Below are positions 15,739 to 17,906 of a stretch of DNA of 64,000 nt, in pieces. A program made the translations under genes and the position numbers. The stretch comes from Bacteroidales bacterium (GTDB lineage: Bacteria > Bacteroidota > Bacteroidia > Bacteroidales > F082): the NCBI GenBank assembly GCA_017549805.1, contig JAFYNJ010000003.1:1-64000 (forward strand), given 5' to 3'. The notes beneath the pieces are model-generated. The model had not been told where the DNA came from and made no database searches. It worked only from the letters and a program-made list of their open reading frames with translations. How positions within the stretch are numbered: position 1 is the first letter of the stretch; every line of letters starts with the position of its first letter.

Positions 15739-16203
15739 TTAGATGAATTCGATGTTCTCTTCTGAGGTGTATTTCTCGCAGTAGTGGCAGACCAGGCGAA
15801 GCTTGCCGTCCACATACTTCACGCGGAACTTGGTCGGGATGTCGTGCTCCTTGTTGGTGACGCAGTTCGGGTTGAAGCATTTCACGATGTGCTCGATGCG
15901 ATCGGGGATGGTCACGGTTTGCTTGTTGATCACCTCGAACTCCTTGATCTCGATGATGGAGGCTGTGGGTGCCACCAAGGCAATCTTGTTCACGTCTTCG
16001 GTCGCGAAATATTTATCGGAGACTTTTACGAAGCCCTTGGTGCCGTATTTCTTGCTTTCCACGTTGATGCCAAGATACACCGGGTTGTTTATCTTGTCCA
16101 AGCCTAAGATCTTGACCACTTGGAACACTTTGTCGGCAGGGATATGGTCGATGACCGTGCCATTCTCAATGGCGGATACGATCAGTTCTTTTCTTTTTTC
16201 CAT
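15739..16203 (-). CDS. pyrI: Aspartate carbamoyltransferase regulatory chain
   Basis: The regulatory subunit of aspartate transcarbamoylase, which binds CTP/ATP and tunes the first step of pyrimidine synthesis. It has 154 residues. The N-terminal allosteric domain carries VSAIENGTVIDHIPADKVFQ; the C-terminal zinc domain has the four Cys ligands in CFNPNC and CHYC. Its presence shows the allosterically regulated PyrB-PyrI enzyme. It follows pyrB after 32 bases, filled by a heptanucleotide repeat array. Confidence 0.97.
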   Translation of the reverse strand: MEKRKELIVSAIENGTVIDHIPADKVFQVVKILGLDKINNPVYLGINVESKKYGTKGFVKVSDKYFATEDVNKIALVAPTASIIEIKEFEVINKQTVTIPDRIEHIVKCFNPNCVTNKEHDIPTKFRVKYVDGKLRLVCHYCEKYTSEENIEFI

Positions 16204-16204
16204 A

Positions 16205-16238
16205 ACTTTTATCTTTTATCTCTTATCTTTTATCTTTA
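16205..16238. repeat. Heptanucleotide array between pyrB and pyrI
   Basis: About four imperfect tandem 7-base units (TTTTATC, TTTTATC, TCTTATC, TTTTATC on the plus strand; purine-rich in the mRNA sense). It occupies the whole pyrB-pyrI gap, abuts the pyrB stop codon and ends just before the pyrI start. It is one of several period-7 arrays in the window. Confidence 0.7.
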
Positions 16239-17156
16239 TTTGAGTCCCAAAATTGCTGCGATAAGTGCTTGCCTTGCATACACGCCATTCTGTGCCTGTT
16301 GGAAATAGTAGGCCTTCGGGTTGGCATCCACGTCCACATGGATTTCGTTGACGCGCGGCAGCGGGTGCAGGATGCGGCAGTTGGGCTTGGCGTTGGCCAG
16401 CATGGCGTTGCGCAGCACGTAGGAATTCTTCACCTTCTCGTATTCCAGCGGATCGGGGAAGCGCTCGCGTTGCACACGGGTCATATAGATGATGTCGGAG
16501 TGGGGGATGACTTCCTCCAGCTCGGTAAACTGTTCGTATTCAAGATGGGCGTCCTTGATGTGTTGTTTCACGGTTCTCGGCAGTTTGAGCTCAATGGGCG
16601 ACACCAGGTTGAACTTGGCGTTGAAGTGGCTCATGGCTTCCACGAGGCTGTGTACGGTGCGGCCGTATTTCAAGTCGCCCACCAAGGTGATCTCAAGGTT
16701 TTCCAGCGTGCCTTGGGTCTTGCGGATGCTGTAGAGGTCGAGCATGCACTGGGTGGGGTGCTGGTTGGAGCCGTCGCCGGCGTTGATGATCGGCACCTTC
16801 GACACTTCGGAGGCGAATCGGGCGGAACCGTCGATGGGGTTCCGCATGACGATCAAATCGGCATAGCTGGCCACCATGGTGATGGTGTCGGCCAGCGATT
16901 CGCCTTTCTGGATGCTGGTTCCCGAGGTGCTGCTGAAGCCGATGACGTTGCCGCCCAAGAGCTGGATGGCGGTCTCGAAGCTCAGCCTTGTGCGGGTGGA
17001 AGGCTCGAAGAACAGCGACGCGATGATGCGTCCGTTGAGCAGGTTCTGATGCGGATTCTTCTCGAAGTCTTCTGCGATGTCAAGAACATGGCAGATCTCC
17101 TCCGGCGTGTAGTCGCTGATGGAAATCAGGCTGCGGTTTTTCAATGAGATGGACAT
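16236..17156 (-). CDS. pyrB: Aspartate carbamoyltransferase catalytic chain
   Basis: Catalyses carbamoyl phosphate plus L-aspartate to N-carbamoyl-L-aspartate. The 306 residues show the carbamoyl-phosphate motif STRTR (residues 53-57), the SxxKGE-type loop ([11 protein letters not shown]), the HPTQ block ([11 protein letters not shown]) and the C-terminal HPLPR. It is the first gene of pyrBI. The 165-base region in front contains a promoter box, a possible 20-codon leader peptide and a strong terminator hairpin, which suggests transcription attenuation. Confidence 0.98.
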
Positions 17157-17185
17157 AGTGTTATGTGTTTAGTTTGTTGATTATC

Positions 17186-17218
17186 AAAAAAAAGACGGTT
17201 ACTAAATAGCAACCGTCT
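17186..17218 (-). terminator. Terminator hairpin in the pyrBI leader
   Basis: On the minus strand AGACGGTTGCT pairs with AGTAACCGTCT (11 bp with one G-U) around an ATTT loop and runs straight into eight T residues. It lies between the predicted promoter and pyrB, so it would stop transcription before pyrB unless relieved. The 5' arm overlaps the end of a small reading frame. It could instead just end the transcript of the upstream outer-membrane gene. Confidence 0.75.
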
Positions 17219-17264
17219 CGATTCCTTTTATTAAGTTTTCCGGTGATACTTTTTCGTACATCAT
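17202..17264 (-). CDS. Possible 20-residue pyrBI leader peptide
   Basis: A short frame starts with two ATG codons (17264 and 17261) only a few bases after a predicted promoter and ends with TAG inside the loop/3' arm of the terminator hairpin. The product would begin MMYEKVSPEN and end ETVAI. A ribosome translating close behind the polymerase would cover the 5' arm of the hairpin, the arrangement used in enterobacterial pyrBI attenuation. No homologue is known to me and a chance frame of this length is quite possible. Confidence 0.35.
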   Translation of the reverse strand: MMYEKVSPENLIKGIETVAI

Positions 17265-17271
17265 CGGAATG

Positions 17272-17300
17272 CAAATATAGGAATAACTTTCAAAAACAAA
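17272..17300 (-). promoter_or_regulatory. Predicted pyrBI promoter
   Basis: On the minus strand TATATTTG (17279-17272) matches TAnnTTTG exactly; a TTTG (17300-17297) lies 17 bases upstream, slightly closer than usual. Transcription would start near 17268, leaving about 110 bases of leader before pyrB. Confidence 0.55.
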
Positions 17301-17321: not shown

Positions 17322-17906
17322 TTATTGATATTTCATAACATTGAAGGCAATACCCAAGTAGGCAGCGTGAGCAGTGCAAGTGGCATTGATCTCGAACCAT
17401 TTCCAGGGCACCACTGTGAGACCGGCGCCATAGTTGAAGTCGTTGCGGTGCCAAGTAGCGTGGTATTTGTGGTAAATGGTGTGCGAGGAGTAATCGATCT
17501 CGGCACTATAGCCCTCGGTGTAGCCTGTGGTGACACGGCTCCAGCCAATCAAAGGAGTGATAAACACATAGTCTTTGTAGATCGGAATTTGGTAACCTAC
17601 GTTAAGTGTTAAAGCGGAATGGTCATCCCAGTCGCCTTGGATGAGACGGCTGTCGAATCGGTGATCAGGGCTAACATAAACAAAATCGATGTAGCCACCG
17701 GCGATGGAGAAGCTTCCGCCTACGCCGATATCGGAAAAATCCCATGTGTCGGCGATACCAAGATCGCTAACGTTTCGGTAACCGACAAGACCTGTGTTAA
17801 GGCCGACAACGGCACGATCCATGTTTTCTGAAAAGTCAAACCATTGGGCTTGGGCGCTGATCGTCATCATGGAGAACAGCACTGCGATAATTGCTAATTT
17901 TTTCAT
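17322..17906 (-). CDS. Predicted outer-membrane beta-barrel protein
   Basis: A 194-residue exported protein of unknown function. A signal peptide is evident (MKKLAIIAVLFSMMTISAQA, cut before QWF). The rest alternates aromatic and polar residues in short strands (GSFSIAGGYIDFVYVS, ALTLNVGYQIPIYKDYVFIT), as in small porin-like barrels, and ends ACTAHAAYLGIAFNVMKYQ. It lies 11 bases behind the patatin/barrel gene and is probably cotranscribed with it. I cannot assign a family beyond an outer-membrane barrel. Confidence 0.65.
   Translation of the reverse strand: MKKLAIIAVLFSMMTISAQAQWFDFSENMDRAVVGLNTGLVGYRNVSDLGIADTWDFSDIGVGGSFSIAGGYIDFVYVSPDHRFDSRLIQGDWDDHSALTLNVGYQIPIYKDYVFITPLIGWSRVTTGYTEGYSAEIDYSSHTIYHKYHATWHRNDFNYGAGLTVVPWKWFEINATCTAHAAYLGIAFNVMKYQ

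Follow-up and report, generated by a model that had tools for sequence, protein, structure and literature searches.

The pyrBI operon of a member of the Bacteroidales is likely to be preceded by a transcription attenuator that is coupled to translation and works like the pyrL leader of Escherichia coli. The operon lies in the first 64,000 nucleotides of contig JAFYNJ010000003.1 (assembly GCA_017549805.1). This whole stretch is called the window here, and all features located in it below are on its minus strand. Comparison with related genomes shows a conserved predicted promoter, start codon, open frame and terminator ahead of pyrB, and no exact promoter box after the terminator. Transcription would start just before the leader frame, the frame would be translated, and the position of the ribosome would decide on termination, with UTP as the signal. 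UTP sensing is the least certain element for the short form of the leader, which is the form found in the window.

The leader in the window

The gene pyrB (16236..17156) encodes the catalytic chain of aspartate carbamoyltransferase. It matches TIGR00670 with 365.9 bits (cut-off 236.95), and its product is 51% identical to E. coli PyrB. The regulatory chain is encoded by pyrI (15739..16203), where PF01948, PF02748 and TIGR00240 all score above cut-off. Both assignments are certain. The gap between the two genes (16204-16235) is filled by a AAAGATAAAAGATAAGAGATAAAAGATAAAAG-like repeat.

Upstream of pyrB, the first element is the promoter box TATATTTG (17272..17279), a -7 element of the main sigma type of the Bacteroidota, with consensus TAnnTTTG. 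A TTTG at 17297-17300, 17 nt upstream of the box, may be the corresponding -33 element. The bases CATTCCG separate the box from ATGATG, which starts at 17264. From there a pyrL-like leader frame of 20 codons (17202..17264) reads MMYEKVSPENLIKGIETVAI and then stops at TAG (17204-17202), inside the terminator hairpin.

This hairpin, the candidate attenuator (17192..17219), was found by folding, by a terminator scan and by alignment. Its stem has 12 pairs including two G-T, and its loop is 4 nt long. A T8 tract (17186..17193) follows, the first two T of which also take part in the stem; the tract is kept in 38 aligned relatives. Another 29 nt (17157..17185), without a promoter box in the box scans, lead to pyrB. 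The first-pass annotation had described box, ATG codons, 20-codon frame, TAG in the hairpin and eight T as a stack in front of the operon, and every one of these parts is present; only the stem, there given as 11 bp, comes out with the pairs listed above.

Fold and alignment also predict a hairpin at the 5’ end, P1 (17238..17269), with arms at 17269-17260 and 17247-17238. In the fold of the window's leader, the 5’ arm of P1 contains the leader start codon, with the A of the ATG in an A-C mismatch. Further on, GGAATC (17220..17225) aligns with the 5’ arm of a hairpin called P2 in relatives that have a longer form of the leader. The 3’ arm of P2 and the U-rich tract of these relatives are absent from the window's leader.

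The leader folds better than dinucleotide shuffles of itself, with z -4.31 for 151 nt and z -4.51 for 87 nt, and 0 of 200 shuffles were as good in either case. A terminator scan of 801 bases on both strands gave 4 sites against a shuffle mean of 0.5, and the attenuator stem is the longest. The promoter box by itself is uninformative, as TAnnTTTG occurs 34 times in the window where 33.5 are expected. What is informative is that in relatives box and ATG keep a constant distance of 7 nt.

Conservation within the genus

The genus sample consists of Candidatus Limimorpha, which is placed in the Bacteroidales, and its relatives. It was assembled from genus searches, fetched stretches and named contigs (at least 80 loci), and holds 86 distinct upstream regions that start at the pyrB ATG and have at least 85% identity. 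Two loci in which no start was found (L050, L129) were left out, and so was L198 (83% identity), where the leader is present by eye. Two regions cut by contig ends (L021, L074) and L024, where an unrelated hairpin was scored, stand as misses among the 86. Among the matches listed, most of the named relatives are MAGs from rumen or horse gut, and Candidatus Limimorpha equi and caballi have a PyrB identity of 93% and 87%. The window's own genome has the pyrB locus twice, identical over 3918 bp, on contigs C13 (27402-28319) and C14 (the window). The second copy may be an artefact of assembly, given 7.58% contamination.

Box, frame and terminator occur together in 76 of the 86 distinct upstream regions, which places the terminator between the operon promoter and pyrB; that pyrI lies 3’ of pyrB was checked in the window. 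Conservation in relatives was one of the checks named for the attenuator reading, and with promoter, start, open frame and terminator all recurring, that reading holds up. Wherever a leader has both box and ATG (78 out of 78), the two are 7 nt apart. The 76 leaders divide into 65 long forms and 11 short forms, the latter being the window's clade. The distance from ATG to hairpin is 85-89 nt in 60 of the 76, and 44-48 nt in the window's clade.

The leader has also been lost. In L005 and L064 the terminator is gone, with the start and P1 retained. Four loci (L011, L026, L077, L160, by script) and L024 (by eye) retain the box and the first bases only. In L008 the promoter is lost and the hairpin follows directly behind the upstream gene. 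Since seven upstream regions of the genus have lost the terminator and L008 the promoter, the attenuator is dispensable. Several of the loss loci retain TTTGCATTCCGAT or TTTGCATCCCGA right 3’ of the promoter, which marks where the deletions begin or end.

The arrangement in L008 touches on another explanation of the hairpin. It could be the ordinary terminator of the upstream gene, with a frame that is open by chance and a promoter of pyrB's own nearby. The window's neighbour (17322-17906) is indeed on the same strand and ends 102 nt before the hairpin, and in 10 of the 76 leaders (not in the window's) a box with one mismatch lies past the T tract. Counted anywhere after the hairpin, one-mismatch boxes are found in 63 of 76, a number inflated by the T tract itself. 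Against this, the scan for exact TAnnTTTG between hairpin and pyrB gave 0 in 76 leaders, so that an intrinsic terminator stands upstream of pyrB with no exact box of this promoter type behind it. In addition, argS lies divergently upstream, 137-405 nt from pyrB, in 16 of the 86 regions, 15 of which have frame and terminator. In these 15 the terminator therefore cannot serve the neighbouring gene. With stops missing from one specific frame as well, as described below, a terminator of the upstream gene is a very improbable account of the site.

An open frame with little constraint on the peptide

Read from the ATG through the whole 5’ arm of the terminator, 75 of 76 leaders have no stop in frame 0; for the other two frames the numbers are 1 and 15. 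Over the stretch before the hairpin, 65 out of 65 long forms keep frame 0 open, as against 1 and 31 for the others. The 1867 codons of frame 0 contain 0 stops there, where the other frames have 157 and 74. The leader frame thus reaches the terminator, as a frame of the pyrL type does.

To allow for relatedness, neutral change was simulated forward along trees, with as many substitutions as had been observed. Runs that left every tip open were rare for the two large groups, with 5 of 5000 (24 tips) and 2 of 5000 (20 tips). Two smaller groups gave 37 (5 tips) and 1101 (4 tips) out of 5000. The window's clade, represented by eight short forms of 45 nt, gave 2053 of 5000, which is not significant by itself, and neither is the result for the 4 tips. 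It follows that across the genus the open frame is maintained by selection, and that the window's clade is insufficient on its own to say so.

The place of the leader's stop codon varies. It lies between terminator and pyrB in 36 of 76 leaders and overlaps the pyrB start in 31. In seven it is inside the hairpin, in one it is in the T tract, and in one short form (L063) it precedes the hairpin by 8 nt.

Selection on the peptide itself was considered and is not supported in the group with an 87-nt distance, where 251 synonymous and 1382 nonsynonymous codon differences were counted after P1. It is weak in the 89-nt group (138 synonymous, 360 nonsynonymous), where the mean BLOSUM score is 0.87 in frame 0 against 0.55 and -0.72. 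By these counts the pattern looks much as expected if the translation of the leader matters and not its product.

The same numbers bear on the idea that the unit is a small gene, translated and closed by a terminator of its own, where pyrB is expressed by leakage only and nothing is regulated. Promoter, frame and terminator do form a complete unit, and there is some constraint on the peptide in the 89-nt group. The lack of constraint in the 87-nt group speaks against it, as do the overlap with the start of pyrB and the fact that the unit stays joined to pyrB across species. It is scarcely believable as an explanation.

Predicted RNA structure

An alignment of 38 diverse leaders was examined for covariation. 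Paired cells make up 85.9% for P1 and 96.6% for the terminator. There are 26 double-change cells in total, 12 of which are in P1; shuffles have 12.6, and 0 of 500 were as high. The two measures that resist relatedness do not stand out: 89 of 500 shuffles have at least as many pairs with double changes (5), and 475 of 500 have at least as many pair types (15). The covariation is therefore weak, and suggestive only.

Predicted folds of seven leaders keep the terminator stem intact in 7 of 7, both as minimum-energy and as centroid structure. P1 forms in 6 of 7, the exception being L029. No pairing that competes with the terminator was found in any of the seven, a test of limited reach.

The order of parts in the long forms is P2, then a U-rich tract, then the terminator. 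In 37 of 56 unique long forms, P2 outperforms 90% of its mononucleotide shuffles. Over the 25 nt that lead up to the hairpin the U content is 0.50, compared to 0.24 before that, and 61 out of 61 unique long forms have the higher value next to the hairpin. The window's clade, with its 11 short forms, has 0.18 over the same 25 nt and no U tract. The four short forms in the alignment retain only GGAATC, the match to the 5’ arm of P2.

The folds tell against two further explanations. The first is attenuation of the trp type, where a ribosome stalls at specific codons and thereby shifts an antiterminator. A short frame before a terminator is what such a system has. It also needs a competing hairpin, which the seven folds lack, and the peptides differ widely among groups. 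There is next to no chance that this is the mechanism.

The second is an RNA-binding regulator of the PyrR type, or a metabolite aptamer, that acts at P1 or P2 to govern the terminator, with the open frame being secondary. In its favour, P1 is largely kept, as the paired cells show, and L146, L148 and L150 have a P1-like hairpin at the 5’ end (L146 and L150 by predicted fold, L148 by eye) with the ATG in its 3’ arm or just after it. However, the best match in the window's genome to NF003549, presumably the PyrR model, is 22.5 bits where the cut-off is 138; 6 of 14 control genomes score above that cut-off. At the window site no Rfam family reaches its cut-off, and a search of 9 loci with E up to 1 gave no match on the leader. 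PyrR or riboswitch control was rejected on these grounds, namely no NF003549 match over cut-off and no Rfam match on the leaders. Nothing in the folds competes with the terminator, and the stop-free frame would be left without an explanation. Control of this kind is improbable.

Predicted transcription start

The consensus TAnnTTTG is given in PMC7366714, and PMC9723704 places the box at -12 to -5 in Flavobacterium psychrophilum. Applied to the window, the position of the box points to a start zone at 17264..17270, with +1 near 17267 if the G of the box is -5. With the box placed at -12 to -5 as in F. psychrophilum, the 5’ UTR of the leader would be about 3 nt, a near-leaderless start. For Bacteroides thetaiotaomicron, PMC7366714 reports that only about 3.7% of 5’ UTRs are shorter than 10 nt.

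The sequence TTTGCANTCCGATGA was considered as a regulon-wide motif and rejected. The window's own genome has 12 matches to it at 2 mismatches (control 0 and 1), and exact ones only at the two pyrB copies. Separately, TTTGCAGTCCGAAAA is found 3’ of TA-rich boxes elsewhere in this genome, for example at C2:14726, C6:13838 and C14:130562. This hints at an extended consensus of the start region in the genus.

Beyond the genus

PyrB of the window's type is present at E 1e-60 in 119 of 129 sampled Bacteroidales genomes, the window's own included. At E 1e-50 it is found in 0 of 87 genomes from other orders of the class Bacteroidia. That this type occurs in the Bacteroidales but not in these genomes of other orders hints at a separate origin of the operon.

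The set outside the genus holds 123 distinct pyrB upstream regions: 115 sampled plus 14 named, minus six duplicates. Eight loci without a usable PyrB match were left out. The loci are mostly from different families, and some may be related.

An exact box plus a terminator at a suitable distance is present in 24 of the 123, with an ATG in between in 23. The frame of the first ATG reaches the hairpin, or stops at most 15 nt from it, in 21 of these 23. Dinucleotide shuffles give 8.5 as the expected number (P about 1e-9); long upstream frames were left in for this count. Doubtful among the 21 are three loci, L059 with 6 codons, and L245 and L288 with open stretches of 75 and 98 codons. Without them the count is 18 of 20, where about 7.2 are expected. 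The U excess is weaker in other families, at 0.37 versus 0.27, and higher in 13 of 17. The absence of stops from one frame in the genus, together with this recurrence in other families, gives good comparative support to an attenuator with a leader frame, as had been proposed from the window's letters.

Terminators directly behind long upstream frames were excluded from the attenuator count. There are 33 such further distinct loci (38 rows), where the terminator starts 1-28 nt after the long frame. These loci favour the idea of an ordinary terminator of the upstream gene, and some of them have a box after the terminator (by eye). In L042, L045, L238 and L286 there are only 13-22 nt from terminator to pyrB. 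As this leaves no room for a promoter, read-through seems to be needed there, and the upstream gene may take the part of the leader frame.

Proposed mechanism

In the proposed attenuator, transcription would start a few nucleotides before the ATG, so the ribosome would begin almost at the 5’ end. It would then translate the short frame into or through the intrinsic terminator. If the polymerase outruns the ribosome, which would be the default, the hairpin would form and end transcription after some 80 nt, or about 120 nt in the long-form relatives. With the ribosome close behind the polymerase, the 5’ arm of the hairpin would be covered and transcription would continue into pyrB.

Low UTP may be what lets the ribosome catch up. 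In the long forms it would slow the polymerase, and P2 with the U-rich tract is the likely place for this. As the U tract is gone from the short form, the pause there would have to lie elsewhere, or the signal would differ. Sensing in the window might take place at the U-rich hairpin arm and loop (GGUUGCUAUUU), or at P1.

Parts of this are known from E. coli. According to a passage in PMC4824070, a ribosome at a stop codon a few nucleotides before a terminator represses that terminator. Within the first 100 bp, the same source states, a terminator is effective except where a pause gives the ribosome time to close the gap, which is the case in pyrBI. PMC5021804 describes read-through in E. coli pyrBI as dependent on the coupling of ribosome and polymerase.

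A more tentative addition is that P1 acts as a gate. Its ground is that the start seems to lie within a few nucleotides of P1 and that the AUG is in the 5’ arm of P1. The ribosome could load only before the polymerase releases the 3’ arm of P1 (some 45 nt), and a race between ribosome loading and P1 folding would then read the speed of early transcription. In the window's clade, without a U tract, this race could be the main sensor, giving a switch of the pyrL type on a near-leaderless mRNA. Beyond the genus, translation-coupled read-through of a terminator into pyrB may perhaps be general in the Bacteroidales, with the end of an upstream gene replacing the leader frame in some families. The race is speculation, and this extended version is rather unlikely to be right as a whole.

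Relation to known systems

The pyrBI attenuator of E. coli and Salmonella (PyrL) is alike in layout: the operon is the same and the frame runs through an intrinsic terminator with T8. In the E. coli sequence (NC_000913.3) the hairpin is 90 nt from the ATG, close to the distance in most of the Bacteroidales leaders, and there too the terminator comes after a hairpin and a U-rich tract (by eye). The E. coli ATG is about 20 nt from the 5’ end. The Bacteroidales leaders differ in having a Bacteroidota promoter, an ATG that is 7 nt from the box and probably about 3 nt from the 5’ end, and a start codon inside the predicted hairpin P1. The window's clade differs further by its shorter distance from ATG to hairpin and the missing U tract.

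PyrR attenuation of the Bacillus type likewise has a terminator before the pyr genes. The window's genome, as noted, has no NF003549 match over cut-off.

Within the Bacteroidota, sORFs resembling leader peptides have been reported for BT_4401 of B. thetaiotaomicron and for amino-acid operons of F. psychrophilum; these too are short frames in 5’ UTRs with a proposed role in attenuation. The main texts of the two papers on these (PMC7366714, PMC9723704) gave 0 matches for pyrB. Full-text searches covering the main texts of freely accessible papers did not find a pyrBI attenuator in the Bacteroidota or Bacteroidales, nor did broader searches among the matches listed, in agreement with the first-pass annotation, which knew of none in the phylum. 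Searching for pyrBI with Bacteroides led to two NusG reviews that have pyrBI in their reference lists only. The main text of the attenuator survey by Naville and Gautheret mentions neither pyrB nor Bacteroid. The best reading is a translation-coupled attenuator of the pyrL type with a near-leaderless start in a 5’ hairpin, of a kind that these searches did not turn up for the phylum.

If this is true, textbook pyrBI attenuation exists in a second phylum, with different promoters and start signals. The 74 distinct natural leaders, together with eight species-level losses of terminator or promoter, provide material to learn from. A near-leaderless start inside a 5’ hairpin would, if true, set the race of ribosome against polymerase in a new manner. 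And with a native switch of this kind, which requires ribosome and polymerase to move together, transcription-translation coupling in the Bacteroidota could be tested directly.
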